From: Mesostigma viride
Taxonomy: Eukaryota > Streptophyta > Mesostigmatophyceae > Mesostigmatales > Mesostigmataceae
DNA length: 64,000 nucleotides
Assembly (NCBI GenBank): GCA_009746045.1
Contig: RPFO01000026.1
Location: forward strand, 2,416,047 to 2,480,046
Reading direction: 5' to 3'
Shown one piece after another: positions 108-60,759 of this stretch (the stretch's first letter is position 1; every line of letters begins with the position of its first letter). The translations under genes were made by a program, and so were the position numbers. The notes under the pieces were generated by a model, which had not been told where the DNA came from, searched no databases, and worked only from the letters and a program-made list of their open reading frames with translations.

Positions 108-152
108 TCTGCTTCTATCTCGCTGCACACTTTGTACGTCTCGAATAGTACC
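108..152 (-). repeat. Exon-edge echo of the coiled-coil gene's last visible exon
   Basis: On the minus strand this repeats the last ~30 coding bases (ETYKVRSEMEA, here FETYKVCSEIEA) of the exon ending at 218. It lies about 70 bp downstream of the real 5' splice site. It is a diverged copy rather than a second exon, since its donor has decayed. Confidence 0.6.
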
Positions 153-217
153 AGCAGCTGCACCCACCAAAATTGCGCAAGCATCAATAGTCACCAAACA
201 TTAGAGCACCCACCCAC

Positions 218-3200
218 CTGCTTCCATCTCGCTGCGCACTTTGTACGTCTCGTACTGCACCAGCACCTCCGACTCCTCCGCCACCGTGCCCAGCTGGCGC
301 CGCAGCTCCGCGTTCTCCGCCTCCATCTCCCGCAGACGGCGCTCGAGAGCAGTGCTCAACTCCACCGCGACCTGGCACAGTGGGAGAAGGTCATGGGATT
401 TTAAAATCTAAGGGTAAGGGCGCGTGGCCACATCCGGTACCGCGTGCCCTCCCAGGTTGGCCACGACCGACTACGCCGGTGCGCCGGCTGCCAAAGTACG
501 GCTGCGATTCATGCAACAAGACATGGAGGACTTGAATGGGTGGTGGGGAAGGGGCCTGGGGCGTTGATGGTGCCACGGCATGATGTAGACTGTGGCTTGC
601 GACTCTGCTCAGCAGGCACCCGGTACAGGGGATGATGATTGACACTGTGGCTTCATGATCCCCATTGTGGCGTATCTAAATGTGCCGTCATCTAAATTTG
701 CCTTCAACTGCCATCTTGAACAGTTGCAGAGGCCTCCGATATGGGGGTTGCTGACCCTGAGCTCGATCGATGGGCCTAGTCAGAGGATGATTATTGTCCC
801 GGAGCAACTGGCACTGCAAGGGGGTTCTTGGAAGGTGTGCGAGACATTCATCACCGCCTGAAGGGATGCCACTTGGGCGGCATCGTAAGGTGTCGCACGA
901 ACTAGCGCATGCTTTCACCGCCGACGCTCCCATCCTTTCCCCAGCCCGATCCCACAACCTGCTCCCACCCTCCGAGTTCCCCTTGCTGTTATCGCAGCCA
1001 TGTTCTAGTATACCTCAAGCATGGAGCGCAAAGGGCCGATCATCAGGCTGGCAGGGCCACTACCGGAATGCATTCCGGGTAATGTACTTATGACGTGTGA
1101 GGTGGACCAGCCAGCGGTGAATGGGTCCTTTGCTGTTACCCCCCAAGGCCTTGGGGGACTGGCCCCAAGCAAACCGAGGCATTATCAATAGAAAATAGAT
1201 TAGGATGAATGTATGCTTCCAGTCACCTGGCTGTGACTACCACCACCATCTCGCTGCCTGGCCATCGCAGACCAATGCCCTGTGACGCACCTCTGCATGT
1301 GATTTGTTGAGGGAGTGCTCGCCCCCCGGGCTCTCCCTGTTGCCTCGCTGGTGCGGAGCTGGACTGGTGCCTGCATCCTCAACATCATCATCGAGAGAGA
1401 GGCAAGAATGAGGCGATGTTATATGCACTTTACTGTATCTATAGTACTATATATATAGTAGAGAAAGTTAGTCCTATGCAGTGTATCTATAGTACTGTAT
1501 ATATAGTAGAACATGTTAGTCCTATGCAGTGTATCGATAGTACCGTATATATAGTAGAACATGTAAGTCCTATGCAGTGATATGGCTGGCTGGGGAAGGC
1601 AGAGATATGTATTTGTATTATTATGTGAGACACCGCTCATGCCTTTCCCAAGACCATACAAGATGAACACAGAATCCAAGAGGCTGTGTTGAGACTGTCG
1701 TGAGATGACACGATCCAAGAGGCTGCGTTGAGAGGGGCGTGAGACGACACGATCCAAGACGCTGCGTTGAGACGGGCGTGAGACGACACGATCCAAGAGG
1801 CTGCGTTGAGACGGGCGTGAGACCACACGATCCAAGAGGCTGCGTTGAGACTAGCGTGAGACGACATGATGACGATGCTATGACTACGCAGCTTATAGAT
1901 AGAGAAAACCTGACGTTAGACAGTAAAGCATCTCTCATTATAGTACAAGAACTCACCGGCATTCCACGTGGCTGCCCGCTGGGGTTGGGCCGTGCGGTTC
2001 ACCTCTGCTTGCCGCGCCATCTCCTCTTGGTGCCTGCGTGACGGGGGCCATGTAACACAGCAAAGCATCGTCACTGCGGTAATTGGATCTGCAATCACTA
2101 ACTCGGCACAGACCTCGTGGGGCTTACAAACTGGATCTCAGCTACAGGCAACGTTACCAGCCGGCCATGTTACGCTCGGCCAGCCACTGGATGTAGGCAA
2201 CAAAAACAGCCGGCAATATGGGCGCTGCCTTTCCTCACTCTGGCATTTCGCTCGATGCAATCATACAAATAGTCTCATAGGGATAAAAAAGAGGGTTATA
2301 ATATGGTCGGGGTTGGGGGTTGGGGGCAGGGGTGTCCTGAAGTCCCATGAGAGGGATGGCATTTGTGTGTGGGGGGGAATGCGGTTCAACCTTTACCAGG
2401 AAGTGGAGCCCGGTATCCCCGCAACCAGGAGTCGTGCATGTTCTCTCGCATGGCCTTGTCCAGTCTGTCTGTGGACAACCCATTAATAGCTTAGTGAGGC
2501 CACCGCTGTGGGTGCCCACTGTAGTGACCACGATGTGCCCACTATAGTGACCGGGAGGGTGCCCACTTGCTGCGGTCTTTTTCCCTCTTTCGAAGGGGTC
2601 GTCTTGCGATCATGTTGATGCCAGCACTTATAAAAGGGAACGGCACGCAGGGGGATGCCAACACTGATGACTGATGCTTCCCACAAGCAGGCACGCCTAG
2701 AGCAGACACCGCTCTCACGCATATAGCATGCTTCCCTCTCACTCATATAGCATGAAAGTCATGGTGTATATATGCCTGCGATAATGCGCTCCCTCTCACT
2801 AATCTCACGAAAACATGGAACATTTAGACATGTGGGCTGCCTCCCACCCTTCGGCACAGACTGGAGATACCTGCGGGCGATGCGCTCTTTCTCCTTCATG
2901 TGGTTGAGCTGGATGCGGCTCAGCAGCTGCTGGTACCAGGTGCCGCCCAGAGGGCCACTCCCCCCCAGGGTCCCCAGGACTATCGGCGGGGAGTACGGCA
3001 CGCTTGCTGTGGGGCCGTGCTGGTGCCGAGGATCCGTGCCCGGCGTCCACGCGGCAGCGTCAGACGAGCGCGCAGTACCGGCCTCTGTCCCTTGAGCAGG
3101 GGCAAGCCAGGGAGGGGGAAATGATCAAATAGTTAAATGGTCGATGTTAATGGCACTAATGGGGCACGTGAGGCCTGCACTCTGCACTCTGCAGCCATCA

Positions 3201-9200: not shown

Positions 9201-10977
9201 CCCCTGCACCGATGTTCAGGATTAACTGATGTTCAAGAAGTCACCTACTGGTTTCCCTTTACCTCCCAACTCGATGGACCAACACCTGATCTAACTGGCA
9301 GACTAGCCAACTACCTGTCAATCTCTGCTTAACCAATTACTGCCTAGACTTTTCACCCCCCTACTATGGAATTCCACCCCCCACTTATCTGCCTTGTAAC
9401 CACTCTCGGCGCACACACACGCACGCACACACAAATATATATATATATATATATATATAATTTTTTTTAAAACACACACACTCTCTCTCTCTGTCTCTCT
9501 CGGCACGCACTGGCTGGCAGCACGCCTTCTGCTCCGCCAGATTGAGCCTGTTGCCCAACTAGTATCCAGTACACAGGTCTAATAATTTATTATTTGACAT
9601 GGATGATAGCATACCTTCTGCTCCGCCAGCAGAAGCTTGTTGTCGCGGATTCCCTGCAGGCTGTGTAGCACGTCGTCGCGCCGGCCACACAGTGCGGCCA
9701 GCATGCGGTGGAGCAAGAGCAGGCGCTTGCGGGAAGTGGGGCCGCCTGCGCTTGCCTGGTGGGGCCAAGGGGCCAAGGGGATGAGGCGACAAGGGGACAA
9801 AGGGAGAAGGGGACAACGGCACAAGGGGACAGGGGGACGAGGGGACGAGGGGATGAGGGGCCAAGGGGACAAAGAGATAAGGGGCGGAGGGGCCGAGGGG
9901 GCGAGGGGCCGAGGGGCGGAGGGGCGGAGGGGCGGAGGGCCGAGGGGCCGATGGGCCGATGGGCCGATGGGCCGATGGGCCGATGGGCCGATGGGCCGAG
10001 GGGCCGAGGGGCCGAGGGGCCGAGGGGATGAGGGGGCGAGGGGACAAAGGGATGAGGGGACAAGCGAGGGGACAAAAGAGTGGACAAGAGAGAGGACAAA
10101 GAAAGGAGATGCAAGGGTATGCCAGTCGCCCATCCAATCCATACAACAGTGGTCCATCCACCCCGTAAGCATAGTTTACTAAAAAGATTCATTGAGAATG
10201 ATGAGCTATAGCCATGAGACCGGTCATGAAGCGTGAACTAGTAACAGCCCTATCAAGTTTACTATGTATTGGCTCACTCCATCCCAGACCACTTACCTGC
10301 ATCCCATGCAGGACCCGTCAGATGTCAATAGCCAGCGACCTGAACTGGTTTCGCGGTTGCTACAGTACGTCGGCACCAACTTCTGTTTCATGCGAAAACC
10401 CTAGGTTGCATCAACTGCCAAAGAAACTTTCTAGGGCGCGTCTTAAATGGCTTGCTATAGGGCATAAGAAGTCAGTTAAAAGAATAAGCTGCGTGAACTT
10501 AACTATTACTCTTCCCCTTCAAGACACGTATCGTGGCTTTTATTCATGCAACGGTTAACAATTACCCTGGACCTGTCACATTATTTTGGCGGTAGGAGTG
10601 CATGCCCAAAGCCGTCGACGAGGAAAGAAGGGTATGCTTACCGCCGGAGTAAACATGGACTCAATGTAATCAGACGGGTCTGTCAGGCCATCGTCTCGTG
10701 GTGTGAATTCTTGCGAGGGGCTGCTGCCGGATTCGGCATTGTTGTTCCCTTGCCGCTCCGGAAACGAGAAACTGTCGGTAGCCCAGTGCCCACGATCCTC
10801 TGGCCGCGAAGGATAACCATTTCCATTACGCGATCCACTGGAAGTCGACGAGCTGTCCCGCTTATCTCCTAGCCAAGGGGACGCGGACTCGGAGTGGATG
10901 TCGGAATAGCTGGGCATCCACGGATATTCCCCATTGAAACTTTTGTGATGGTTAACATGAGCGAATTCTGAATTCAT
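218..10977 (-). CDS. Multi-exon coiled-coil protein of unknown function (3' end beyond window)
   Basis: I do not recognise the family. Twelve exons can be placed. Phase-consistent from the ATG at 10977: 10977-10642, 9755-9615, 8628-8436, 7487-7330, 6548-6422, 6002-5836, 5403-5327, 4349-4283 (422 codons). Then about 3090-2871 (acceptor unsure), 2033-1957, 1363-1291 and 371-218; phase breaks before the third-last-but-one (3090-2871) and before the last exon, so at least one small exon is missing. The first exon is Ser/Gly/Asn-rich and probably disordered. Most later exons are Glu/Gln/Arg/Leu/Ala-rich heptad-like helices, for example ALTTHLEQMRDR and AENAELRRQLG. This indicates a long coiled coil, perhaps a structural or tethering protein, but no catalytic motif is visible. 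The donor at 6421 is GC rather than GT, required by phase. Introns carry several minisatellites. The exon pattern is well supported; the product name is not. Confidence 0.7.
1420..1580. repeat. Minisatellite, about 58 bp x 3
   Basis: Three tandem units each contain an AT-rich palindrome-like core (CTATAGTACTATATATATAG) followed by a GTCCTATGCAGTG segment. It lies in an intron of the coiled-coil gene. Confidence 0.8.
1672..1866. repeat. Minisatellite, about 39 bp x 5
   Basis: Five tandem copies of a unit containing GATCCAAGAGGCTGCGTTGA and GACGGGCGTGAGACGACAC. It is intronic in the coiled-coil gene. Open frames through it are repeat artefacts. Confidence 0.85.
4424..4682. repeat. 11-bp minisatellite (AGCCAAGAAGC)n
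   Basis: About 23 near-perfect 11-bp units; the only variation is GAAGC versus GAGGC. Because 11 is not a multiple of three and the unit lacks stops, all frames stay open, giving spurious repetitive peptides. It lies in the intron just upstream (minus sense) of the exon at 4349-4283. Confidence 0.9.
5095..5312. repeat. Minisatellite, about 27 bp, GTGCCAGCATCAAAGAGTCA type
   Basis: At least six degenerate copies of a unit reading roughly CAGTGATGTGTGCCAGCATC. It ends next to the 5' splice site of the exon 5403-5327. Intronic. Confidence 0.75.
9409..9459. repeat. Dinucleotide repeats (AC)n then (TA)n
   Basis: An alternating CA/CG stretch is followed by about 12 TA units and a T/A-rich stretch. 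Intronic in the coiled-coil gene. Confidence 0.9.
9762..10090. repeat. G-rich minisatellite of GGGGCC / GGGACAAG units
   Basis: Degenerate tandem units such as GGGGCCGAGGGGCC, GATGGGCCGATGGGCC and GGGGACAAGGG fill the intron directly upstream (minus sense) of the exon 9755-9615. Open frames on both strands are artefacts of the repeat. The G-run spacing could favour G-quadruplexes. Confidence 0.85.
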
Positions 10978-12141
10978 CTGGGCTCCACCGAGCTCGGCCC
11001 CACGCTTATCGCTTCTCCGTATTAAGGATTCCGCAGGCTATGTGCATTGTTCTAACTACATCATGTGGAAAATCATAGACGAAGAAGCAATTCACCTAGT
11101 TATGGCCATGACGAACTCGGTATTAATTCATGATTCAATTCATGATTCAAGTTTCGGTATTTTTTTCAATCAACGTTGGAGTCGGGAGATTGTTTGAAAT
11201 CCATGGACCAACAGCCATATTTGATATTCTACGTGGACAGTCGGATACGTAATGCTGGTCGCCCATGTTTAGAATGCCAGAAGTTTGTCGTCCGTGTTAC
11301 CTAAACCCACACTCCCAGTCTCCGACACTCGGCGTGTAATGACTACTGAGTAGGTAATCACTAGACGCTAATCAGTAATCACGTATGTACGTCATGCAGC
11401 TGCCTAATGCCTATGCCCGGGGGCCGGGCCCCCGGCTATTCCTCTGCTGTTCTTAGGGATTAGGTACCGGATTAAGAACTGGGGATTAGGAATTAGGCGT
11501 TAGGGATCAGGGATTAGGGAAGCTATTATTAGCAATTAGGTATTATTGACCAGGTGGGTTCAGTTTTATGTCAGTTCAATTCTGAGTGTTAGGTAACGAC
11601 GTAACATGATAATGGACTAACAATGGCAAGCTTTTCTCGCGAAATGCCGAAATCAGAAATGGCAGCCGAGGCCCAGAAACGTTACCGGGATGCATCACCG
11701 GGATGCATTATGTATGCAACGCATGTGCATTGTGCAACCGGGAAATATTAGACCAGCACGTGTTGTAGACCAACACGTCCGCCGGCCTGTTAAAGTAAAA
11801 ATTTATAGCGCACGTCCACGTGGGTATTTGACGCAAGTGGAAAGGCAAAGGACATGGAAAACTATCGTTACTAGCAAATTAAAACCACCACTTGCAATGC
11901 ATGACAAACTTAAGGCATCTCCGTGGAGAAGCAAAGAACGCAATAGTCGGGACAATAACACATATAGCAGTAACACAGTTGGTATCTTAAACCAGCGGGG
12001 GGATTATGTTCGCGCGAGATAGAGCAGCGGTATAGCTATTGCCATATTTTGTAAGAAAGCGTAGGCCAGCTTCTCGTTCCAGAAGGATAAATGCACCGTA
12101 TTGTCGACCATCCTCTACGATAATCTGATTGTGAAATTACA
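10978..12141. other. Intergenic region between the coiled-coil gene and ICMT
   Basis: This is probably a divergent promoter region, since the coiled-coil gene starts leftwards at 10977 and ICMT rightwards at 12142. At 11455-11545 it has an irregular run of GGATTAGG/GATTAGGGA words, loosely telomere-like. No gene or clear TATA box was seen. Confidence 0.5.
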
Positions 12142-15100
12142 ATGGAGCCTTTTATCATCTTTCTAGGATTCGTCATTTTCTACCATGTCTCAGAAGGGGC
12201 GTTGGCGTTCATTTACAACCGCGACGATTTCTCTATGGGCTGTACGTATGCGAACGGCACTGTGACATTCCATTCATTTTTTTTATCGAGAAGTCTATTC
12301 TAAAAATCCAACCTCGTTATATGTATGCCAGACTTGAGGTGTTAGCCGAATATTCTATATGCATGGTTCCTTATGATGGTTGATTATTTGTGTTGGCCTG
12401 TCTTGCTGTGCCCCTGCAGCCTTCCTCTTCAGCAGGGAGTACCTGATTGCCATGGGCTGCGCCTGCCTAGAATACTGGCTAGAGCGAGCGTTTTGTCCCG
12501 GCCTCAAATCCGGCGCCATGTGCAGCATATGCTCCATCACAGGCATCCTTATGGTGGTTACCGGGGAGCTGATGCGCAAGACGGCGATGATCACAGCTCG
12601 CCGCAATTTCACGCACTCGATCAAACACACACGCCGTGCGGACCACCGGCTGGTTACCGAAGGCATTTACAGGCAAGTAGCTTCGCTGGCCAATTTGCTT
12701 GGGAAATCGGCCAACAGTTAGCCCAATTAATTATTATTTTTTGAAAAGTATAAGAAGGCTTGTCATCAATACTGGGACAACAGGAAAGTCATAGACTATG
12801 GCAGAAGGGAGAGCCCTGGGGTTGACTCTGGAATCTGCACATATTGCGTGATGCACATACTCTGGAATCTGCACATATTGCGTGATGCACATACTTTACT
12901 TTTTTTGGCAATACGTTGTACTGGGCTGTTCATCCGTCAGTTCCGATGCCTCTGTAGCAGTCCAGTCTTTGGTCTGCACATAGGCGTGTTCAACTCCACG
13001 CTCTTGTTTGGTTGACGTCAAGGCTCAGCCACCTTTGAACTAGCTCCCATTTGAACTCCCATTTGAATTGTTCGTTAATGCATGTTTTGTGTTTGTGTGT
13101 TAGGATCCGCGCGTTTGACCCCCGTGTGTGTTCATATGTTGGATAGCTATAACACCAGTGGAGCTCCCACTCAGGTGGACACCATCGTGTTGTTGTGCAC
13201 GTCTTGGATGTCATGGCCTCCCGAGCCAGCGAACTGTGCTAGTTGCAGGGGACCTAGCGCCTACACGGCGTCGTTACTCCTGCACTTCACCTGCTTCATG
13301 AAGTTCTGCTTGCAGTTTTTGGACCGAGTGCCTTTCCCTGTCCTCATGTCTGTCTGCAGGAGCAAACCAATTGGGAAAGACTGAATTTTTTTAAAAAAAA
13401 TGTATTCGTGGTGAAAATAGAAAGAGCCCTCTCCTCAAAGTTCAACCATCTGTACAGCCCCAAAATGTTTCACCTAGTTCTCCCTAGATCTGAATCTCGA
13501 AGCAGATGCCTGCTGATGCCATCAATTAACAGCGCTACTTGATTACAAGCACTTGATTAAGAACGCGATCGGTCACAAACGTCGCTTGATCTAAGTCGGT
13601 GCAGCGATGGAGAACCACGTTTCTGACTCGACTAGCATGCCAATTATACCAGCATGCCTCCCATCATACCAGCATGCCTCCAGTTGTACTATTATGGCTC
13701 CAGTTATACTAGTATGCCTCCAATCATACTAGTATGCCTCCAATGATACTGTCAGGCCCCCAATTTTACTACCATGCCTCCAGTTATACTAGTACGTCTC
13801 CAGCTGTACTAGCATGCCTCCAGTTACACTAGCATCCCTCGTCTACTTCTTTCCTGTATTCGTTTACTTCTTGCGTTATCACTCATATATTTTCAACTAT
13901 ACATGTGCCCTTCAATTGTACGTGTGCCCTGTCACACTCCCCCAGGTACATCCGCCACCCGGGGTACCTCGGCTGGTTCATCTGGAGCGTGGGGACGCAA
14001 GTATTACTGTGCAACCCCATTTGCATCCCCGCGTTCACGTACGTGAGCTGGAGCTTCTTTGCGACGCGCATCCCGTATCCTTCTTGCCCATGTTATACTC
14101 CCTTTATCCCTAAATCCTTTTTGCCAAGTTTGCATTTACCGCGTCGCATTTACCTTGTTTCATATATCGTGTTCCTTGTATTTTCCCTGTGCATGCATTT
14201 CTATCTTTTTCCCATGTCAAACATCCAGTATCGTTCTTGCCCGCATTGTCCTTATGTCCTCGCTGTCTTGTTTCCGTTTGTACTCGTTATCCTTTGTGCC
14301 CACATTGCGTATAGTAGTTGTTGTGTGTAGCATAGTTAACGCATCTGGTGAACACATTCCCTTTCGTCCTCCTTGCACGCATTGCTCATCCCGTATGCTT
14401 CTGGCACACGTGCTGCGTATGTTAGTCAGCATAATTATGTTCCTTATGTTTTCACTCATATCCTTTTGCCACGCGTGTCTGGTCCGTGTTTCAATCGTAC
14501 GTAGCATTAATTTTTTTACTGTTCATTTGTATTTTATTGTTTGTACTCGTCTGTTTGTCCTCATGGCACACATATCGCAAGCGATGCGTGCATGCGACCC
14601 TGCTGGCTAGGTTGCTGCAAGGAGCAACTCACTGCAAGGTTGCTCTACTTATTCTTCTTGCCCACACTGTTTTCTTTCTACTTGCTCATGTCTGGCTCGT
14701 TTCCCACGTTGCTAGAGCGATTGTTTACTTCATGTCCCCCATGGTCCGTCATCCCCATTGTTTAGTCCTTGCTGGCTCGTTCACACACCTAAACACACAC
14801 GCACGCATCCACCACCCACCTGCCCACCCACCCACCCACCCACCCACCCACCCACTCACCCACCCACCCACCCACCCACCCACCCACCCACTCACCCACC
14901 CACCCACCCACCCACCCACCCACCCACCCACCCACCCACCCACCCACCCACCCCGCCCGCCCGCCGCCGCCCGCCCGCCCGCCCGCCCGCCCGCCCGCCC
15001 GCCCGCCCGCCCGCCCGCCCGCCCGCCCGCCGCCCGCCCGCCCGCCCGCCCGCCGCCCGCCCGCCCGCCGCCCGCCGCCCGCCCGCCCGCCGCCCGCCCG

Positions 15101-19300: not shown

Positions 19301-19583
19301 TGCCTCGAGCCATACCTCGAGCACACACAATGGAGCGTGGGCAGTATAAATCACATGTCAACCGACTGGGGTCGATCGCCACTGCGATGCACTCCATCAG
19401 CCGGCAACGACCACGGGGGCACTCGATCACACGAAGATGTTGGTCATGAGCTGCTTCTAGAAATAGGTAGCCTTGCGAGGCGTTAGTTAACCCTCACATG
19501 GGCTGCTTTGCCCTCACACCAACTGGCTTCAACATGCCCTCATACCAGCTGCTGTGCTCTCACGTGAGCTGCATCGTGCACCC
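16334..19583. other. Repeat-rich intergenic region between ICMT and MCM2 (tail to tail)
   Basis: It holds copies of an interspersed element (16712-16889, 17143-17405, 18235-18490 and short pieces) and no gene I can support. Open frames at 17683-17931 (+, 82 codons) and 18891-19430 (-, 179 codons) match nothing I recognise and have no flanking exon evidence. The MCM2 3' flank at 19491-19583 carries a short tandem repeat. Confidence 0.5.
17143..18490. mobile_element. Long inverted repeat (arms about 260 bp) around an 830-bp centre; probable non-autonomous transposon
   Basis: Arm 17143-17405 is the near-perfect reverse complement of 18235-18490. The outer end begins TATCAAGGAGACAACCAGCG. A third partial arm lies at 16712-16889. 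Short pieces of the same end occur at 17485-17520, 18573-18606, 20098-20150 and 29268-29296 in both orientations. The centre codes for nothing recognised. Repeated copies with a shared terminus argue for a foldback/MITE-like family; the superfamily is unknown. Confidence 0.65.

Positions 19584-19606
<23 letters not shown>
19491..19606 (-). repeat. Tandem copies of the MCM2 stop-codon region in its 3' flank
   Basis: The minus-strand sequence around the last codons and stop (CAGCTGGTGTGAGGG) recurs about four times downstream at roughly 24-bp spacing, for example at 19491, 19511, 19536 and 19558, with decay. This shows that the boundary duplications seen in introns also happen at the end of the coding region. 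Confidence 0.7.
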
Positions 19607-30963
<11,357 letters not shown>

Positions 30964-31737: not shown

Positions 31738-34700
31738 ATGATTTGCAGCCAGACTAGCCCTTGTAGTGGAGCGCATGTCGTTTTGGAGGTCATTTTTGGC
31801 GCCTCTGCCCCACAGCGGAGGCGTCACGTGACGACATTGACCGAGGCATGGCTGCCACCGGCACGCCTGCTGGGCGCGCGTGATAATTGCACAGAGCTAC
31901 GCACGAGCATGATGGTACAGCGTAGCGGTCACGGTGCACGCGCGTCCTCCGGGGATGCACAGATGAACTCAATTCCGGCTACTCTGGCGACGAGAAGGCC
32001 AGAAAATGCGGTCCTGCCGTTGGAGAGAACTGCGAGTGACAACGATGGCGGCGTCCAACAAAACCTCGCTCGTCCCGCACGTCGAAACATTCTTGAAACA
32101 CCTCAACAAACTAGACGAGAACCAGGCAGGCAGGTCGACGGTGTCCAATGGGAAGATCAGGGAGAGCTCCCGTCGGATACTCGCCGTATCATCTCGGGGC
32201 ACCGCACCTCCCTAGTGGGACGGGCACGGGCGAGAGCCTCGGAGTTCGGTGCTTTGAAAGCGGAGGAGCTCAGGAGCCGGCTAGATGCAGCTCTGCGCAG
32301 GGATGGTGACGCGCTGGATGCGGTGGCAGTTTTGTTTGCTTTGATAGATTCCGGGAAAAAGCCTGCCGCCTCTCCTGCTTCGAAATTAATAGCCTGTAAG
32401 TGTGAGCACTGCTCCATTCACCCAGGCGTACTTTTTGTCATAGCGTTTCACTGCATCCCAACTCTCGACGCCATAAGGACGTGAAATCGTGTGAACGTAC
32501 CCAGCAAGGATTGGCCAGCACCTAACTTTGTGTTGGTTTGGCATTTATTGTATGCATCACAGAGAGCACGCACATCTAAATCGGTTCTGCTCATAATTGA
32601 AGGCTTGGTTCCAGCCTGGCTTACCATGAGGATGCCCTGCCACGCATCAGCCAAGAGCCTGCTCAAAGGCAGCCACAATGACCCGTTCTTGTTACACTGA
32701 CCCATGCCTGCTACACTGACCCATGCCAGCTGTAGTGACCCCTGCCTGCTGCTGAGCAGGTGGCCCTGCCACCCTGGTTATGACACTAATCATTTCCCCG
32801 CAGGCACCTCTGTTCCTTCTCCCTCCGCGGAATCCGTTATGACAGCTCGCTCACGCTACCTCCCGTGGCACATGCATGTATAATCACGCCTCTAGTCCCA
32901 CGCCCCTCTCGCCATCCTATTGTCCCATCGCTCCCCCTCCCCCCCTCGGGCCCACTGCCATCCCCTGGCTCGTGCGCATGCGCACAGATAGTCAGTAGTA
33001 ACATTATGCTAGCAGATAAAGTAGATCTATCGCCCAACGCGCTTCCCATTATCCACCAGCCTCAGCTTTCATGCTTCCGCCCTCCTGCTCTCCCCCCCCC
33101 CCTGCCCGCTTCGCCCTTTCCCTTTCCCACCCCCCCCCGCCCTTCCCCCCCCATCTCAACCCCCACAAAAAATCCACCCTCCCCCCCCAATGCAGTGCTC
33201 TGTGGCCAAGGGTTTGCCGTCGATGCCTACGACATCTACGCCACTTGCACACGCCATGGGATATCCCTCCTCCCCTACGCGCCCGAACGGCTCACCCAAG
33301 CGCTCGCAAAGTGCGGGGAGACCCGCCGGGCGCTTGAGCTCCATGCTGCCGCCCGCAACGCCGGCTCCCCTCCCAACCCAGCCATCTACTGCTCCCTCAT
33401 ATCTGCGCTGGGAAAGGAGGAGGGCACCGCGGGCCCGCAGCAGGCGATGGAGTTATGGCGGGAGGCGCTCGCGAGGGGGGTGGTGCCTGACCTCCCCCTG
33501 TGGAACAGCACGCTGGTGGCCGCGGTCTCACTGGGTCCCTGGGACGTAGTGGAGGGCATTCTGGAGGACATGCGGGCTGCGGGCGTACCGCTTGGCGTGC
33601 GCACATTCAACATCCTCATCAAGGGGTGAGTTGTCAGTTATCACTACTTTGTTTGTGTACGCATTCCATCATGTAATTGTTCAACTTCCTCATCAAGGGG
33701 CGAGTTATTAGTACATTGTTTGTTAAGGTATTCTAGTGTACTATAGTCCAACATCCTCATCATGGGTAAGTTATTAGTGCATTGTTTGTTTAGGTATTCT
33801 AGTGTACTGTCGTCCAACATCCTCATCATGGGTGAGCTATTAGTGCATTGTTTGTTTAGGTATTCTAGTTTACTTGTTGGACATCGCCATCAAAGGGTGA
33901 GCGGGTATTTAAGGAAAAAACAAAACACTACCTCTTTCAGACAAAGGGCTTCGAATGGTGTGGTTGAGCCCCGTTTGATGGCAATGTTGTGGCGGAGCCC
34001 CTTTTCATCCCAATGGTCTGGTTGGTGGAGCCCCTGTTTATCCCAATGGTCTGGTTGGGCCCCGTTCGATCGCGTGGTGCTGTCGCCGGGGTTGCAGTAG
34101 CGGAACTTTTCGAATTCCGCAAATATGATGAAGAACTATGTCCGGCATAGCGAGGAGCAGGGGAAGGGGGCAGATGCGCAAGGCATGCCTCTACCACGTG
34201 TAAGGCTTCGCATGGCAACCCCTGCTAGATGTGTCGGTTCCTGCCTACTATGTTGGTTTCACGGTCTCCATGTTGCCTAGGAGTCTCCCCCCCCACCACA
34301 TTTTAAACACCCCCACTCCAACCTGCCCCATACACCCCCCCCCCGTCCCTCTCTCTACCCGACAGCTACGGTCTCCACACATCGACCTTTCTTCCTGCCC
34401 TTGATGTCGGCCTTTCCCCCCGCCCCATCTTTTCCCTCCCTTCTACTCCCCCCAGCCATGGCAACCACAACCAATATCTTACCACTCACACACCTTAATA
34501 CCCCCTTCTGCCCCCCCCCCCCCGCTCCTCACAAAAAAAAAGAAATATCTACCCCTCGTCTACCCCCCCTTTTGTTCACCCCAGCTACGGCCTCCACCTG
34601 AAGTCTGACCCGCCCACGCCTGGACACCCCCCACCCCTCAACTCTCTATCGACTTCCTTGCTCCCCCCGTTTTATCATTCCCCCAGCTACGGCATCCATG

Positions 34701-37700
34701 GGCGTGCAGAGGACGCGCGGACTGTCCTCTCGCGCATGCGCCGCTGCCGTGTGTCGCCCAGCAGCGCCACGTACAGCTCGCTGGTGGTCGCGTTTGTACG
34801 GTTGGGGCTGATGCCTCAAGCGGAGGGGGTGCTGCGACAGGCGCGCGTGATGGGGGCGCCGCCCGACGTGAAGACGTACACCGCGCTCATCAAGGTGAGG
34901 GGAGGCGGGGGATCCGAGGAGAAGAAAAGGGGAGGGAGGCAAGGGGTAGGATGTACACCGCACGCATGGTGGTGAGGAAGAGTGGTGGAAGGGTGAGAGA
35001 AGGGGAGCTAGGGGGTTACATGAACACCGAAGACATGCAGGTGAGGCTTGGGAAGGGAGGGGCCGGCAGTTTGTTGTAAGCCTCCACTGCGCATCGAGTG
35101 AGGTGAGATGGGGAGCAAGGGAGGGAGGGGTTGGACAGCAGATGATGAGAGGGGGGAGACCTACACCACGCTCATGCCGGTGGAGTGGTTATGAGAAAGG
35201 AGAGGGGGGGTCATAAGGTGAGGGGGAGGATTCTTAGGTGAGGACAGGGGGGGCTAAACCCTACATGAGATCGGCGAGGTGAGGGGGGGCTTAACTCGCA
35301 CTACTACGAGCAAAGGTGAGGGAAGGGAGGCCTGAACCCTGAGTGAGGAAAGACGAAGAGTGGGGGGGCTAAACCCTACTCTGCACTTACGTAGGGGGGC
35401 GGGGTATCGTGTGGGTGGATGGGGGGAAAGCCGGTGGGGTAACCCATTACATTTCCAGCTGGTTGTTGTGGGGGCGTGGGAGGCAGGAATTCGCGTCAAA
35501 AGGGGGGCATTGTTGAGGATGATTGAGAAGGGAGCGGCTTTTTCCAGCCTGCCGCTGAACGTGCGCATGGTTCCATGCCTGCAATAGAGGTATGATTTCA
35601 ACGCGCCTGCATTGAAGCCGGTCAGCAAGAGTTGCTTTGCTTTCCACGCGGTTGCTACATGCTGAGCCATCCAGTTACTAAATATCCCTTGCCCCTCACG
35701 CCACTATCTGGGAACACCCGTGCGGGGGTGGATGCAGGGCTACTGCGACGGCGACATGCTGGCGGATGCCACCGCCACGCTGCAGAAGATGCGCGAGGAG
35801 GGGATCACCCCCAACGAGGTGGGTACGCGGTCACGAGTGTGCTAGAAGGCTCATGGGTTCATAGGGTGTGCATGATGGTCACCCGCAAGGAAGTGGGCAC
35901 GTGGCTATTTGTGTGCTTGAAGGCATGTGCATGGGAAAGGTATATCTAAGGTATGCACAGTGGTCCAGATGGTCATTTCGATTCATCCTGCTCTCATGCG
36001 TGTGTGTATGCATGGTGCCAGCGGTTTTGCTACATAAGCGTATGCATGGTGGTTGAGCGCTTTCACAACAGCGCTTTCAACTCGGCACTCGTAAGGTATC
36101 CGTATGGTCCCGTCTGCCCCCCCCCCCGCCCCCCCCTCCTCTGCCCCCTCTGTTGTCTCTCTCCTCATCAGGCAGGTGTCTTCCATAATCACACTGTCTG
36201 CGTTTCGGATGCAGGCTGAACACGTCAAGTTCATGGTGTGCTCGCCTCACTGTCTTCCCCTCTTCATTTCCCCTACGCCAGGTGTCGTACACGACAGTGA
36301 TCGACGCGTGCACGCGCTCGCTCAACCTGTCGGCGGCCAAAAAGGTGCTGTCCCAGATGGTGGCGGCCGGCGTGGCGCCCAACGCGGTCACGTACAATGC
36401 GCTGCTGCGGGGCTACTCGCAGTGCATGCAGGTGCGAATTTCGAATCACGGGTTACTTTTTTATTACGGGTAGTAGTGGGAGAGAAAGGAAGATAGTCGC
36501 ATGCAGATGTGTGGCGATAAGGTGAACCATAGAATATTAGAATAGAATATGCTAGTATATTATTGTAGATAGAAGGCGTAACATAGAATTAGGATGAACG
36601 GGGAGAACTCATGGATTGGTGAGCAAGGACGAGCAGTGCATGCAGTTTTATGGAACCAAGAGAGGAAAGGGACGTATGTGCGAGGGTAGGACAGTCAATG
36701 ACGAATGTGAACGAGCTGGGTACACCGTTTTTTTTTTTTTTGGGGGGGGGGGGGGGGGGGATCTCTTTGGACAGTTGAATCGTCCATCTACCAATTTCCA
36801 TTTACTTAAGTTTAATGCGCCTCATATGTAGGATTCAGATGTAGTGTGGCCACCCTGCAGGTTTCACATCAACCCAAACATATGTGGATGTCTGGTCTGT
36901 GCCGGTTGCCTCAGTGATGTCCTGATTTGGCACGCCGCAAAGGTGAAAACCATTTGCGTTCAGTGCCGGTCCGCGGAAAACGCGGAAAAACGCGGTCTGC
37001 AAATGAATCCAGGCCGGAATCGAACTGGGGACCTCAGTGATATGTATGGCTGGGTCGCTCTATTTTCTGCTGCTAGCTGCACGACGGGAAGGAGCTGGTG
37101 ACCAAGGTATTATGTCCAGTAGTATGTCTTGCCGCCTCACCACAAATATTACTACACGGTTGGGTGGCTTCCTGTCATCAGCTGCGCGACGTGAAGGAGC
37201 TGGTGGCCAAGATGAAGGAGCGCGGAGTGGCCCCCACGCCCGCCACGTACAACACGCTGATCGACGCTTGCATCCGGCACCAGGACAGTGTGGGCGCGAT
37301 GGCGGCATACGAGGAGATGCGGCGCGAGGGGATTGCACCGACTGCTGTCACGTACACCACGCTCATCAAGGTGGGGGGGTGGGGAAGCTTTGAATGATAG
37401 GCATGCCCCACAATGTGAGGGGATTGCACCGACCGCCGCCATGTTCACCACGCTCATCAAGGTGAGGTGTCAGTTACACCATCCTCATCAAGGTGAGGGA
37501 GGAGGGAGAGCCAGAAGCTTGGTGACGGACTCCTCCAGTGCATCGCTGAGGAAGTGCCCCAGGCTCTGGCAGTGCCCGTAGTGGGGAGTGGGCAGGTAAA
37601 GCCTGCGCCACCCTCATCAAGGTTACAGGGTGGTGCCTATGGCTATCTCCAACACCCTGCTTGTCAAGGTGAGAGGGGTGTGGAGGAGAGAGATTCAACC

Positions 37701-40076
37701 TAGAAGGGATAGTCCTGCACCGTGCTCGTCGAGGTGAGCAGTAAGACGGGGAGCAGCAGCACGTCTTCTTCATAGTGGAGAGTCAAATGGATAAGAGGGG
37801 GAATTCAGCACTTGGCGCGCACCAAATTTGGAACCAAATTTGGAGTGTGCAGTTCAGCTGAGACGTCCCCCACCCCTGGATATACTGATAGCATGCGTAG
37901 AGATTTAGAGATGTTAGGTTGCGCATGAAGTCCTCGCTTTGTTCTAATGATAATCCCTACTCGTGTGCATTTGCGTGCCTGTATGTGCCTGTGCTAATCT
38001 GTGTGCTATTCTGTGCGCTTGTCTGTGTGTGCCTGTCTGTGTGTCCCTGTATGTGCCTGTGCTTGTCTGTGTGCCTGTATGTGTGCTTGTCTGTGTGCCT
38101 GTATGTGTGCTTGTCTGTGTGCCTGTATGTGTGTGCCTGTATGTGTGCTTGTCTGTGTGCATGTATGTGTGCTTGTCTGTGTGCCTGTATGTGTGTGCCT
38201 GTGTTTCTGCTCGTGGAGACTAGCAGTGCTACTGCCTGGACCGCCAACCGGGCGCAGCGCTGCGGATCTTCCGTGCGATGGAGGAGGACGGGCGCGTGCG
38301 CGTGGACGCGGCCGCCTACAACGCTCTCATCCACTGGTGGGTTGTGCCTCTACAGTAAAGGGTGTAGAGTAGAGTGCTCTCAACAATCCAGAATAAAATG
38401 TGTTCGAATCAGTATCGTACCAAATCTTTCACTCTAGTAGACAAGGGCGTCCAGGCTACTGACCATGCCATGCCGCCTAGCACACGCTCATCCACCACTT
38501 TGAATCCGGTATGGTACCAAAGTATTTAACTGCTGGGTGATGCCAGTAAGGTGTACCAATGCCCTGTTATGCTACAGTGCTGTTATTGCGGTTAAGCCAT
38601 AGGCACTCCTCTACTTAACCTGAATAAATATTCTGCTACATCACCACGCCCTAGTGGTCTACAAGTGTTTGCTGCCGTAGAATACTAGCCCATCGTTCAC
38701 GGTGTTCTATGAAACTATACGTACCCAGCAAGCTGGTGGCCACGTCCGCTCTCCCTGTGGCAAAGTCTGATAAGTAGCTGAAAGACATTTCCACTCGTCT
38801 TCCAGCCGCCTGCAAGCCATGGCTGATCAAGGAAACTTTCGGTGCTGCTGGCCGTGCAACCCCATCTCCCACCCTTACCCGAGACCCACCCGCCCATGCC
38901 CCACACCCTACCCTACCATCTACATGCCCCATGCCAACACCATCAATGCGGTTTCCTCCACCCCACGCTTTCTTTGGCTACTCCGTCCCCCTGTTCCCCC
39001 TTTCCCCTGCTGCCTCCCCTTTCTAACTCTCCCCGCCACCTTAACCTAACGCACCTGCCCCCTGCCCCCTCGCCCCCCCCTCTTCCCACCGCCTCTCTCC
39101 TCGGTCCCCGCCACCTCTCTTTCTCCCTCTCCTATGTCGCCTTCACCACGACAAACAACGTGTGACCCAAACCAACCCGGACGGAAACAACTCTGTACGA
39201 AAACAGCTTTGCGTGCGCAGGCATGATGGCGGACGCGGCGGGTGTGCTCTCCTCCATGCGCCGCGCGCGCGTACCTCCCTCGCGCGCCACCTACGGCGCG
39301 CTCATCTCCGGCTACGGCCGCACAGGGGAGATCGATGCCGCGATGGCCCTCTACGAGGAGATGAGTGGGATTGGGGGACAGGTGGCGCCGGACGAGCGAG
39401 TATACGACATGCTGGTGGACGGGTGCGTGCGGGCGGAGCGCTTCTGCCTCGCGATGGCGCTGGTGGAGCGCATGCAGGAGCTCGGGGTCTCGCCCGACAA
39501 GGTCAAGTACAAGAAGATGGTGCGTGGCTGTCAATACATGCCTATGTAATACTAGTATGTAGTCATGATAGTCATATGTCCCTTCCTACCTCGCCATGAT
39601 AGCCATTTTCCCAACAAGACCAAGTACAAGAAGATGGTGCGTGGAGTACATGAGTGGGTATCTACTAAAACATTTAGTCTTCATGGTATAGGATTTGGCT
39701 GAGCGGCTGTCTTAGCTAATGTAGATGCTGGGCTAAGCTAAGCTGCTTTCGTGCTCATGCATATGCTCAGAAGTCTGCCTCGGTTCTTGCTGGCCGTGCA
39801 TGCGCCTCCTCACCATTTTTGCGTGTTCCGCCTGTCATCCGCCCCAAATGTCTCCCTCCCCAAACCTGCTTCTGAAAGTAATCTTCTTCCCAAATCTCCG
39901 TCCCAAATGACCTCCGCGTGTGGCTGCAGTTTGTGCAGAAATACCCCAAGCGCAGCATGTTCAAGGCGAGCAGCCCCAAGAGCAACGTCGCGTTCGAGCG
40001 GTTCAAGTTCTGGCTGGGGCTGCGCAACTCCTACTATGATTCTGATTTCGATTGGAGGGATTGCCTCGAGAGCTAG
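31738..40076 (+). CDS. Pentatricopeptide repeat (P-class) protein, probably organellar RNA-binding; HCF152-like
   Basis: Nine exons: 31738-32395, 33196-33625, 34687-34894, 35738-35818, 36282-36431, 37182-37370, 38227-38336, 39207-39519, 39930-40076; total 2286 bp, 761 aa, phases all fit. After a ~220-residue low-complexity, Arg-rich N-terminus (which may contain an organelle transit peptide) come about a dozen 35-residue PPR motifs, such as VTYTTLIK, ATYNTLIDAC and ATYGALISGYGRTGEIDAAM. Such proteins bind single-stranded organellar RNA to protect, process or activate transcripts. There is no SMR or DYW domain. The tail AFERFKFWLGLRNSYYDSD recalls plant HCF152 (plastid psbH-petB RNA processing) from memory, so orthology is tentative. 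The start is uncertain: later in-frame ATGs occur, for example near 31909 and 31963. Divergent from MCM2. Introns hold many copies of exon ends. Confidence 0.93.
33626..33900 (+). repeat. Four echoes of PPR exon 2 end with donor
   Basis: The junction AACATCCTCATCAAGG|GGTGAG (true donor 33626) recurs at about 33681, 33751, 33811 and 33876 (CATCCTCATCATGGGTGAG and similar). The units are 60-70 bp and also share TTATTAGTGCATTGTTTG, so exon edge and intron start were duplicated together. Confidence 0.85.
34359..34602 (+). repeat. Echoes of PPR exon 3 start with acceptor
   Basis: The true exon start CCCAG|CTACGGCATCCATGGG (34687) is preceded by CCGACAGCTACGGTCTCCAC (34359), CCCAGCCATGGCAACCAC (34451) and CCCCAGCTACGGCCTCCACC (34578). 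Each keeps a pyrimidine-rich tract and AG. Confidence 0.75.
36921..37036 (-). mobile_element. tRNA-related SINE copy
   Basis: Reads on the minus strand GGTCCCCAGTTCGATTCCGG (RNA polymerase III B-box-like) followed by a shared 3' region ending with CACCTTTGCGG. It is nearly identical over about 115 bp to 43555-43672 in the opposite orientation, apart from a small internal duplication (GTTTTTCCGC). In PPR intron 5. Confidence 0.7.
37072..37106 (+). repeat. Echo of PPR exon 6 start
   Basis: AGCTGCACGACGGGAAGGAG and the following CTGGTGACCAAGG copy the true start CAG|CTGCGCGACGTGAAGGAG CTGGTGGCCAAG (37182). It sits 110 bp upstream, beside the SINE copy. Confidence 0.75.
37371..37740 (+). repeat. 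Five echoes of PPR exon 6 end with donor
   Basis: The junction CACCACGCTCATCAAG|GTG (37370) recurs at about 37441, 37474, 37609, 37649 and 37711 with increasing divergence (for example ACCATCCTCATCAAGGTGAG and ACCGTGCTCGTCGAGGTGAG). Most keep a strong GTGAG donor. Confidence 0.85.
37975..38215. repeat. TG-rich minisatellite (GTGCCTGTATGTGTGCTTGTCT)n
   Basis: About ten 20-24 bp units with GTGCCTGTATGTGTGCTTGTCT theme, in PPR intron 6 immediately before exon 7. Confidence 0.9.
39611..39645 (+). repeat. Echo of PPR exon 8 end with donor
   Basis: CAAGTACAAGAAGATGGTGC repeats the exon 8 end and donor (AAGAAGATG|GTGCGT at 39519) about 115 bp downstream. Confidence 0.8.
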
Positions 40077-40810
40077 AGCTTCTGCAGTTACGAGTGGGAA
40101 AAAACTGAATGTGTTTCAAATGGTTCGCCCTTGCCAAGCCTAGTTCTACTTGTGCCTGCCTTGGCCGCCATTGATGTCTATGACGGAGGGGCAGCTGTCC
40201 TACGGGGTAGTTGGGTGGCGCTCGCATCAGTTTTGGAAACAATGAAGGTTCCAGCCACAAACTCACTTAACAAAGATCGAAGCTGATATTGTGGTTGCAC
40301 TAGTTTTGGAAAGGCGGCGTGGTCACAACCACTAGAACTGGTATTTATGTCCTTGGACCGGTGGTTGGTGACTTTTCTCAAGCACGTCTTGTGTGCCATG
40401 CTTTCATAAGATGTTGGCTCACAGCTGCAAACAACGAAGCAGTGTGTTTAAATAAGTTAACATTGTACTTGAATTTATTTTCTATTAACCGTGAACTCCA
40501 GGGTAATCAGACTCTCCACTCCGTACATCAAAGAAACCCTGACAGTGGCAATGACGCAAATGTGGCATTCTTGTTGCTGGCGGCGTACGTAAGTCTGCCG
40601 GGGCCATTAGTTAATTAATTAATTAGACTCGATCGTGCTCCCGTAATTGGGAGTCACGGAGCATTAACCCCGATGGATGGATGGATGCAATCAATCCTAC
40701 CGGTCTCTCTACAACATCAAGCCAACTCTAATCTAAGCTCTCTACCCTAGGGGACCTGTCTGGCGTGCTTCCCGCGTGTTTGCACACGCTGGCGTTTCCC
40801 CGCGGGAGGG
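40077..40810. other. PPR 3' flank and start of transposon zone
   Basis: No gene seen. 40607-40715 is one copy of a repeat also present at 49997-50096 (TTAATTAATTA, then GTGCTCCCG...GGGAGTCACGGAGC and ATTAACCCCGATGGATGG). Confidence 0.5.
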
Positions 40811-46860: not shown

Positions 46861-46867
46861 AGGGTAA

Positions 46868-51655: not shown

Positions 51656-51659
51656 TCAG

Positions 51660-58200: not shown

Positions 58201-60759
58201 CGCCAGCCAGCCTGTACCATGCATGCATAAAGTCAAACCATGGCACTGAAAACACGAGACTCAATCACATCTGGATTGACTTGAAATAGTCCGCTTTCTA
58301 CCGCCCACCCGGCCGCTCCCACCTATAATGTTAGAATTCCAACCGTAGGCTCACCTGGTCTGGCTGCGACGGCAAGGCAGCGGCGGCGTTGGACATGGCC
58401 GCGGACACCGCGCTGGAGACTGTCTCCCGCACACCTGGTGGTGGTGGGGACCCATGTTAGATGGTGTACACACACATCGACGGCAGGGGTTAGAGGCACC
58501 TAGCAACAAGGATGGCGCGCTGGACACCGTCTCCCGCACGCCTGGCCGTGAGAACCCAAGGATATCAAAGGCATCAGCGAGGCACGAGGAGGCACGGGGC
58601 GTGGCGTGAGGCAAGCGTGGAGTGAGGCAAGCAAACCATTCACTGTATCAACCATGAAATGCTCTGTATGCCGCAGACGTCAACGCTGTCCATGTCATAG
58701 CGGGAGTCCTTGTATATAAATATTGGTATTCACGGCACGACTAGGATTCGGATGTCCTTGTATATAAATATTGGTATTCACGGCACGACAAGGATTCAGA
58801 TGTCCTTGCATATAAATATTGGTATTCACGGCACGACTAGGATTCAGATGTCCTTGTATATAAATATTGGTATTCACGGCACGACTAGGATTCAGATGTC
58901 CTTGTATATAAATATTGGTATTCACGGCACGACTAGGATTCAGATGTCCTTGTGTATAAATATTGGTATTCACGGCACGACTAGGATTCAGATGTCCTTG
59001 TATATAAATATTGTTATTCACGGCACGACTAGGATTCAGATGCAACATGTCTGGCTGAATGAGTGCTCATGGGCGACAAAGTAAACTGTTTTATTGATCT
59101 AGGACACTAGGGTTCGCAAGGGCCATTCTCATGTATATGAGGTGTGTATGAGGGGCTGGATTTCATAGTTCGGGCAGTGCCATGCATCCCATCAAAATGA
59201 TGCGCCCACCATTGCCAGCTCTGTAGTAGTTTAGTAGGGAATAACTATTTAGCTGCTTAGTAGCGACCATGGAATAATGGAGCCAATACGCCATCACGGA
59301 CAACCCCACGTACCCCCGTTGACGTGATGCACCCGCCACGCGCCGACGCACGCCGCCACGCCTGCTAGCGCGCAGACACCCGCCACCGCGGTGGCGCGCA
59401 GCCGCATCCGGCCGGGGTTGGCCGATTCCTTTTGAGGGCGGATCCGGACGGCCTCGCGGACCGACTGGGGGGAGAAGGTGGAGCACGGAGGCAGGGCCAG
59501 TTCAAAGGGGGCCGGGCGAATGACTTAGTTACGAGATTTGCCTAGTTGGGAGGTCAAGAAGCAAAAGGGCGATAACGAAGATAGGAGGGCATTCAGGTTA
59601 GATGACTTTAAGTAGGGTAATATGGGCCCAGCATATGTGTGGTTTGTATTCATGGGGTGATACGAATGGGCATGTGCCAGACGGCAGCTGCATTCCTGGA
59701 CCTAGTAATCACGTCCATAAGAGTAAGCACCTGGCAGTCACCTTGAGCATGTTTGATGATGGCAACGGAAAATGATGTGCAACGGCAGTGCAACGACTCA
59801 GTAGAAGATCTTGAACTTGTGCACTGCAAGGTTAAAAAATGTGCCATGATCATGTGCCAAACTATGTATGCCAAAGGCGGGCCGGGTTTGGTTGTGTGCT
59901 ATCAAGTGTCTGCAACCTGTCTGATTACAAAAATGTTGTTGCATGGTGCGATCTACGTGGTGTTAAGCAAATCATTACGTGTCACGCATGCGGTGTGCAG
60001 ATGTGTGCATCAGTAACATAACCTGCCAGCATGAGCGGAAAAGCACGGCTGACAAACAGCTGTAAAACGGAAAGAGACTCCACTGGAGGGAAGCCTGACT
60101 GATTGGCTTCCCAGCGACAACATGTTGAGTGTCTACTGTAATCGCACCTGTTTGAAATCCTGCAACACCTCCAAAAGTCTACTGCCTGTAAACCAGATCG
60201 TGCCGCGTTGTACTAGCCACCGAAATAGCTGGTTGGCAATCTTGCCATGGAGGCTAATAAAAAAACAATTCCAGGAGGAAAGGGCACTGGGTGCTGGGAA
60301 GAAAGAGGTAATCAAGGGGCATCGGTATCAATGACCGATGGGTTGGTGAGTCACAGAAAATGTCTGCATGTTGACATGTTGCTTTTAGAACTATTGTTGG
60401 AAGGAAACTACGAAATCAAACATATACTACATCTGATGTCCAAAAATGCAGCAGAGAGTAGGGATATCTAGGGTAGGGATATCTACAACAACAAATGCCA
60501 TATAAATAGGACTTGTGATTGCATCCAACTATGCAGCAATCAACCATTTTGAAAACTATCAGGAATGGGAATTGCATCCATGAGGGGCCCACCTTGCGGA
60601 CTGGTCGGGTAAGGATGGGAGGCTGACAAGCTGCTGACGTGATAGTCTACGTACCGGGCCTAATCCCTACAACATCCATGCATCTACCCATGCCATCCTG
60701 ACCTCGGCCTCGATGACGGCGTTAACGCTTCCCACGATATCGCGCTCCGGGGGGGGCAT
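52214..60759 (-). CDS. D-alanyl-D-alanine carboxypeptidase, VanY/peptidase M15B family, with membrane anchor
   Basis: Zinc carboxypeptidase family that trims terminal D-Ala from peptidoglycan peptides. Nine exons: 60759-60703, 59464-59314, 58434-58355, 57546-57479, 56661-56572, 55961-55880, 53807-53717, 52911-52863, 52370-52214; 825 bp, 274 aa, all phases consistent. One hydrophobic segment, residues 43-62 (ATAVAGVCALAGVAACVGAW), predicts a membrane anchor. Then LLGHFRTTEAPEWDL, a helix ending in VPLSGFRSVADQERVFFDIK, the zinc motif SEHHTGYAID (H186, D193), and EPWHWRYVG (E241 general base, H244 ligand). All catalytic residues are intact. The frame is open upstream of the chosen ATG, so a longer N-terminus (transit peptide?) is possible. 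The family is bacterial/cyanobacterial; spliceosomal introns prove a resident nuclear gene. Inference: a role in plastid peptidoglycan. Confidence 0.93.
56014..56078. repeat. 23-bp tandem repeat x 3 (GAGGCAGATGCCATCGTCAT)
   Basis: Three near-perfect units in intron 5 of the carboxypeptidase gene, just upstream (minus sense) of exon 6. Confidence 0.8.
58515..58552 (-). repeat. Echo of carboxypeptidase exon 3 start with acceptor
   Basis: Minus-strand CCAGGCGTGCGGGAGACGGT GTCCAGCGCG copies CCAG|GTGTGCGGGAGACAGT CTCCAGCGCG, the true acceptor and exon 3 start at 58434, about 115 bp upstream in gene sense. Confidence 0.8.
58706..59041. repeat. 48-bp minisatellite x 7
   Basis: Seven nearly identical units containing CCTTGTATATAAATATTGGT and ATTCACGGCACGACTAGGAT. 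Each holds a TATATAAATA, TATA-like by chance or otherwise. Because 48 is a multiple of three, a 120-codon repetitive frame stays open; it is an artefact. In intron 2 of the carboxypeptidase gene. Confidence 0.92.

Follow-up and report, generated by a model that had tools for sequence, protein, structure and literature searches.

Introns of the streptophyte alga Mesostigma viride contain same-strand copies of the exon edges that adjoin them, splice sites included. An earlier note, made from the letters of a 64,000-nt stretch alone (contig RPFO01000026.1 of assembly GCA_009746045.1, positions 2,416,047 to 2,480,046 of the forward strand; hereafter the window), had reported such echoes in all five genes recognised there and in nearly every intron. 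We counted as a junction-spanning echo any same-strand copy across the adjoining exon/intron junction with a score of at least 30, and found echoes in 46 of 84 introns from 11 genes (MCM2-7, one PPR gene and CCT2/3/5/7) on nine contigs. Only about 0.3 introns were positive when introns of other genes were searched and 2 with the reverse complement, as would be the case for a preference for the adjoining exon and the same orientation. The echoes are real and present in just over half of the introns tested, which confirms the note in part, ‘nearly every intron’ being too strong. They most likely arose by frequent tandem duplication of short segments within Mesostigma introns; the note's own interpretation along these lines is partly supported.

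Frequency of junction-spanning echoes

The sample was composed of a first set, 58 introns of MCM2-7 and PPR, and a second set, 26 introns of the four CCT genes, which were modelled later and put through the identical junction test. The first 40 intron bases were masked and the exon query was cut at 60 bases. Echoes occurred in 33/58 introns of the first set (0.1 in the null from other genes' introns, 2 with the reverse complement) and in 13/26 of the second (0.2 and 0, respectively). In total, 93 echoes were located at 51 junctions, with at least one in each of the 11 modelled genes; MCM5 had the fewest, a single junction once a satellite-filled intron was set aside. For MCM2, the strict criterion reduced the claimed figure of at least 10 of 14 introns to 8 of the 13 tested.

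The same picture was obtained when exon ends and starts were compared with whole introns. A match between the last 50 nt of an exon and the intron that follows it was seen in 17/50 cases at an empirical p ≤ 0.02 (1 expected); for the first 50 nt of an exon and the intron that precedes it, the count was 10/50. Mean scores were 21.5 and 19.3, respectively, versus 15.0–16.2 for reverse complement, other-gene introns and shuffles, which all remained at background in this 50-intron test; the comparison with shuffled introns, proposed in the note as a check, is therefore in its favour. Few matches were observed in the intron on the wrong side (exon start against downstream intron 2/36, exon end against upstream intron 1/36, at p ≤ 0.01), and most echoes were closer to their parent edge than to the far end of the intron (57/63 in the first set, 28/30 in the CCT set). 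That donor echoes lie downstream and acceptor echoes upstream, as the note had put it, holds but does so by construction in adjoining introns; strand, depth in the exon and the intron on the other side are the informative features.

Chance similarity, splice-consensus matches or assembly error might be invoked for the weak echoes, which are short (25–40 nt). However, introns of other genes, their own splice sites included, and reverse complements gave the very low counts reported above for both sets, and most copies differ from their source by 10–28%, unlike assembly duplicates. For the set as a whole, we consider this explanation close to impossible. A mobile element is also disfavoured, the copies not being common to other genes in a null that left out same-gene introns.

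Gene models and echoes in the window

Exons of MCM2 were recovered with our own splice-aware protein aligner, and the reconstructed protein matches the Mesostigma viride protein P0001 (Mesvir1) at 100% identity across 897 aa. Thirteen MCM2 introns (all but intron 1) and eight PPR introns were tested. In the PPR model, frame continuity across intron 7 is provisional, and the donor of intron 1 was placed one base off in the tests. For MCM3-7, cores were modelled on five other contigs from MCM2 and PDB homologues (MCM6 from the MCM2 protein alone), and uncertain introns were excluded before counting; MCM4 12914-13525 represents two merged introns, which the aligner split around an empty exon, and the MCM5 intron 13260-13540 depends on one of two alignments. 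The names MCM6, CCT4, CCT8 and MCM8 are our own labels.

The MCM5 intron 10691-12236 (in a reversed 20-kb locus from L017, L015 and L016) is filled by a short satellite, the unit of which resembles the exon end as far as -18. It was kept in the exon-end and exon-start test, the other-side control, the gap test and the first-set junction count, and dropped from the echo lists and from the codon-position and masked 11-gene window counts.

The two genes modelled in the window and the copies found there are as follows.

19584..30777, minus strand: MCM2 gene model, 14 exons; the model lacks the first coding bases, which are located upstream of it
28578..28613, minus strand: donor echo, MCM2 intron 28765-28147, -31..+5 of the junction, identity 0.86
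28203..28246, minus strand: acceptor echo, same intron, -36..+12, identity 0.77
27587..27622, minus strand: donor echo, MCM2 intron 27687-27266, -24..+13, identity 0.78
27475..27510, minus strand: second donor echo, same intron, -27..+9, identity 0.86
27339..27392, minus strand: acceptor echo, same intron, -32..+24, identity 0.73
26001..26033, minus strand: copy of the next exon's start, 15 nt past the donor of MCM2 intron 26048-25654, identity 0.79, p = 0.005; a layout like that of intron gain
24869..24902, minus strand: acceptor echo, MCM2 intron 25480-24694, identity 0.76
22468..22529, minus strand: donor echo, MCM2 intron 22606-21775, -30..+31, identity 0.73; more copies at 22307-22353 and 22229-22251
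21546..21659, minus strand: tandem array with a 28–32 bp unit across the donor of MCM2 intron 21648-21401
21061..21129, minus strand: long donor echo, MCM2 intron 21217-20699, at least 60 nt of exon plus donor (query cut at 60), identity 0.80, score 53
20802..20871, minus strand: acceptor echo, same intron, -11..+60, identity 0.72
19854..20270, minus strand: four donor echoes, all junction-spanning, in the last intron of MCM2 (20232-20270, 20024-20053, 19897-19952, 19854-19875)
31858..40075, plus strand: PPR gene as modelled, 9 exons
33680..33864, plus strand: three donor echoes, PPR intron 33626-34686, forming a 66-bp array
34546..34596, plus strand: acceptor echo, same intron, identity 0.79
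34950..35188, plus strand: two donor echoes, PPR intron 34895-35737 (34950-35007, 35157-35188)
35879..35924, plus strand: donor echo, PPR intron 35819-36281
37075..37106, plus strand: acceptor echo, PPR intron 36432-37181, identity 0.91
37417..37684, plus strand: three scored donor echoes, PPR intron 37371-38226, identity 0.88, 0.80 and 0.74 with distance
39610..39644, plus strand: donor echo, PPR intron 39520-39929, identity 0.91
14066..14090, plus strand: putative ICMT exon end plus donor, matching about 14222-14242 and 14384-14410; the exon is a Pfam ICMT hit
58409..58545, plus strand: local direct repeat 58409-58438/58516-58545, VanY region of the note; a repeat only, outside any gene model
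109..252, plus strand: local direct repeat 109-153/218-252, coiled-coil region of the note; a repeat only, outside any gene model
9510..9642, plus strand: local direct repeat 9510-9554/9600-9642, coiled-coil region of the note; a repeat only, outside any gene model

Around each of the five places named in the note, a local same-strand match was present that beat every null draw (45–55 draws each). Its claim for all five genes is therefore kept at two levels. Exon edges are copied in MCM2 and PPR according to the gene models, six PPR introns having listed echoes where the note had spoken of several, and in ICMT, where the presumed exon end and donor recur as the note had indicated near 14222 and 14380. 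In the VanY gene (58515) and the coiled-coil gene (108 and 9524), the copies are confirmed as same-strand local repeats and not as exon edges.

Long simple arrays are also present in the window: about 615 copies of GGAT with 100% matches at 40810-43271, four-base arrays (CACC, GCCC, CACT) between two ICMT exons at 14794-15701, and about four telomere-like copies of GTTTAGG/TTTAGGG inside an MCM2 intron at 28410-28438.

Exon edges are copied, exon interiors hardly

On the downstream side, partners were found for 16/44 exon windows at gap 0, 2/42 at gap 40 and 0/26 at gaps of at least 100, whereas intron windows had partners in 97/270 cases at gap 0 and 68/202 at gaps of at least 100, i.e. 33–36% at every gap (these counts include simple repeats and the MCM5 satellite). 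In the masked counts over the 11 genes, the donor side gave 7/228 for deep exon, 11/75 for -45..-16, 30/75 for the edge, 39/72 for windows straddling the donor and 137/834 for intron; on the acceptor side, values were 9/231 for deep exon, 11/76 for the edge, 17/69 for straddling windows and 143/861 for intron. Local direct duplicates are thus also found inside introns, where 16% of 30-nt windows had a partner within 250 nt on one side.

Since exon windows lose their partners with depth and intron windows do not, source-blind copying at a distance is disfavoured, exon interiors being almost never copied. Copying rather seems to need continuity with the intron, as tandem duplication does. That biology restricts the copied exon portion to about 30 nt was considered and dropped, the apparent limit coming partly from the 40-base intron mask and the 60-base query cut.

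Copies were also found at a coding edge with no splice site. In MCM2, such copies of the stop-codon region occur in the 3′ flank (p = 0.002 for -25..+25 and p = 0.020 for the last 50 coding nt), which indicates that a splice site is not required.

19480..19584, minus strand: stop-codon copies of MCM2 in its 3′ flank; low coordinate approximate

Probable drift of the intron copy

Taking the best echo at each of the 51 junctions, we found mismatch rates of 0.131, 0.133 and 0.238 at codon positions 1, 2 and 3, respectively, and of 0.188 on the intron side. The third-position ratio was 1.80 (bootstrap 1.34–2.53), or 1.42 (1.07–1.85) when all 63 echoes of the first seven genes were used, and the CCT set alone gave 0.094, 0.118 and 0.210. 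Such an excess is as expected from a constrained exon beside a drifting copy, and agrees with the note's proposal that the coding side is held by selection while the extra copy decays. If the exon changes only synonymously, positions 1 and 2 would record one lineage and position 3 two, and a ratio of at most about 2 is expected.

Alternatively, the echoes could be kept similar to the exon by gene conversion that uses it as template, the opposite direction not being tolerated. Edge echoes do outlast intron–intron pairs, and one exon beside many copies is an available conversion donor. Nevertheless, the mismatch at positions 1 and 2 is about half that at the third, the value for free drift, while conversion is blind to codon position. 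We regard this alternative as very unlikely.

A GT or AG was kept in 49/63 echoes, and 19/44 donor echoes scored at least as high as the median real donor with our own simple score; decoy splice sites of the kind that the note had anticipated do exist. One could therefore ask whether these sites are functional, in alternative or recursive splicing, and kept by selection. In this direction point the copies in CCT3, which are in frame and open, and the mismatch at the splice-site letters, which is lower (0.12) than on the intron side (0.19). Yet 0.12 is what drift of one copy predicts, being similar to codon positions 1 and 2 (0.13), so that there is no sign of decoy sites being kept or purged. 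Moreover, the number and place of echoes vary freely between introns, and the Mesvir1 model that matches our MCM2 protein is spliced at the first donors. A function of this kind appears highly improbable.

At junctions with several echoes, the nearest was the best-scoring in 14/21 cases (8.4 expected, p = 0.006). This trend fits addition at the edge, and to that extent agrees with the note's picture of introns growing from their edges; growth is not confined to edges, however, as interiors are duplicated as well.

Young copies, arrays and indels

An array was found at the CCT3 donor, where ten consecutive copies of a 48-bp unit, composed of 31 nt from the exon and 17 nt from the intron, run across the junction. 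The exon parts of the nine intron copies are mutually identical and the real exon differs from them at two sites. The unit corresponds to 16 codons, and two units read in frame without a stop.

Among near-identical local pairs (at least 0.93) in 257 kb, 226 kb after masking, 21 clusters had a contiguous tandem pair. Nine of these overrun by 1–3 nt, which hints at microhomology.

Two near-identical gene regions, L037/L045 on C887 and L038/L044 on C1641, are perhaps haplotypes or a recent segmental copy. They differ by 2.0% mismatch over 8,013 aligned bases and by 15 indels of at least 5 nt, of which 6 have an adjacent copy, one being a simple TAAT repeat; gain and loss are indistinguishable in this comparison. 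The C1641 region also has an extra 3.1 kb relative to C887, with CTCCGT at both edges.

Donors carry echoes more often than acceptors

Both sides have echoes but not equally: 35/84 donors versus 16/84 acceptors (p = 0.0023), the tally recounted without the MCM5 satellite intron being 34 and 17. Donor-straddling windows had partners 3.3 times as often as intron windows (p = 5e-12), while the 1.5-fold difference for acceptor-straddling windows was not significant (p = 0.10). The donor result was replicated in the CCT genes (11/24 versus 62/350, p = 0.002).

These data could suggest that donors are duplication hotspots, a process linked to the 5′ splice site copying the segment of exon end and donor into the downstream intron; speculatively, one such route would be repair with nascent RNA as the template, the RNA being tethered to the polymerase by the U1 small nuclear ribonucleoprotein. 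Some near-identical copies are indeed short, spaced and centred on the junction. On the other hand, the excess resides in low-scoring, presumably old echoes, copies with a score of at least 44 being no commoner at donors (2/43 versus 25/906), although cases are few. Duplicates also occur in intron interiors and at a stop codon, and acceptor echoes would need another source. We hold donor hotspots to be quite unlikely. The broader proposition, in which donor hotspots tied to transcription or splicing re-insert the copies, introns have largely accreted at the 5′ splice site and a row of echoes is a dated record with the newest nearest, seems doubtful.

Given this confinement to low-scoring echoes, with no enrichment among the few high-scoring ones, part of the excess is probably longer preservation beside a constrained exon. 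Part of the imbalance may be a splicing filter, an additional donor downstream being less harmful than an additional acceptor upstream. If echoes are lost more slowly next to constrained exons and upstream decoy acceptors are removed, this may be enough to account for it.

Probable tandem duplication across the boundary

In the explanation that we favour, tandem duplication across the boundary, a segment of about 15–100 bp would be duplicated next to itself. When the unit crosses an exon edge, an extra exon end and splice site would land in the intron; the outer copy would stay exon through coding selection, and the intron copy would then drift, amplify into arrays or move off via later duplications and insertions. 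The same process would operate inside introns with neither copy constrained, and edge echoes would remain recognisable longer than intron–intron pairs because one copy is constrained by coding. Copies crossing an acceptor would probably be removed more often, since splicing would be likely to use an intact AG that precedes the real one. In this view, edge echoes seem to be the recognisable margin of a frequent process of short tandem duplication. Duplication of this type, as proposed in the note, is supported by copies that span the junction on the same strand, lie in the parent half and fade with exon depth, by the mismatch excess at third codon positions, by the CCT3 array and by the indels with an adjacent copy; the pathway itself, the order of events, the acceptor filter and an adjacent origin for copies now spaced are what we infer from them.

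Several observations weigh against this explanation. In particular, 25 near-identical clusters are spaced (at least 20 nt) and not contiguous, and only 6/20 near echoes align over at least 80% of the full tandem unit, so that later insertion or deletion must be assumed. The donor excess (3.3 for straddling and 2.4 for edge windows) is somewhat larger than the 1.4–2 that we estimate for slower decay alone. In the CCT set, donors replicate (11/26) and acceptors hardly (2/26), and no echo spanned any of the nine MCM5 acceptors. The nearest-is-best trend is weaker when the members of one array are excluded (10/14, p = 0.02) and is 4/7 in CCT alone. The PPR stop codon had no echo in the test applied to that of MCM2. 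Finally, the duplicate rate is not uniform over the genome: seven random loci (two more, consisting of N, were excluded) had local duplicates in 38/537 windows on the same strand and 16 in reverse complement, versus 206/853 for the studied introns, or 108/667 without MCM5. Transposon content may account for these poorer random loci.

Relation to known systems

Tandem duplication is a recognised route of intron gain (review PMC3443670, including Gao and Lynch 2009, in the part available). In the potato RdRp gene, a new intron was produced when a tandem duplication spanned an intron–exon boundary (Ma et al. 2016, PMC4974935). As in Mesostigma, the duplicated unit crosses the boundary and carries splicing signals along; in contrast, potato represents one recent event with a new intron, whereas the Mesostigma copies lie inside existing introns, apparently unused, in 46/84. 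Intron gain by this route shares with Mesostigma short internal gene duplications as a source of extra splice sites. It could be proposed that Mesostigma introns were themselves born from tandem duplication of exon segments containing AGGT, echoes being remains of that birth, and MCM2 intron 26048-25654 does open with a copy of the next exon's start. However, the required layout occurred in 3/116 comparisons at p ≤ 0.01 (about 1 expected), no clear enrichment, and echoes adjoin their parent edge, as noted above for 57/63. Such an origin is barely credible, and AGGT duplication as a general source of echoes is unsupported.

Short local direct duplications in other genomes, termed ‘doublets’, were reportedly described by Thomas et al. 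in 2004, and Messer and Arndt are said to have described short insertions as tandem duplications in 2007. Doublets are likewise short, local, same-strand duplicates, tandem or slightly spaced; they differ in the apparent density seen in Mesostigma (the 16% of windows above, measured here only) and in the exon edge, which acts as a one-sided decay clock. Introner elements also place repeated sequence with splice sites within introns (PMC9860276, available part), but constitute one family across many genes, whereas Mesostigma copies are at chance level against other genes' introns.

The published Mesostigma genome (NIES-296) is 441.8 Mb with 24,431 annotated genes and a mean intron of 1,142 bp, and repetitive elements make up 30.1% of its intron space; the available part of that paper (PMC6947507) has no mention of exon-edge copies. 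In an incomplete literature search, we met with no description of exon-edge echoes pervading most genes of a genome. Single boundary-crossing tandem duplications are already known; what is added here is the presence of echoes in many genes of one genome.

Other observations

At 62153-63142 of the window, a 329-aa open frame has no Pfam hit. It may resemble the region after a long interspersed nuclear element (LINE) reverse transcriptase. Outside the window, an MCM-family match at C2022:4957015-4957659 (L022) lies within a 663-aa open frame, this gene apparently having few or no introns there, unlike MCM2-7. Another locus, L032, harbors a tandem repeat with an offset of about 970 bp, mostly 94–98% identical.

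Implications

Transposons are the usual explanation for the lengthening of introns; in Mesostigma, another route can be followed at the level of single bases. With the exon as a fixed reference, every echo serves as a small clock of duplication, of decay and of what splicing tolerates, and the imbalance between donors and acceptors constitutes a natural test of which duplicated splice site the cell uses. Many good decoy splice sites are predicted, which the splicing machinery has to ignore and which are a warning to gene finders, as they can appear as false exon ends. Tandem duplication of this kind could be part of the reason why a unicellular relative of land plants has long introns. If the duplication reading is true, introns can be observed in Mesostigma while they grow and fill with decoy splice sites.

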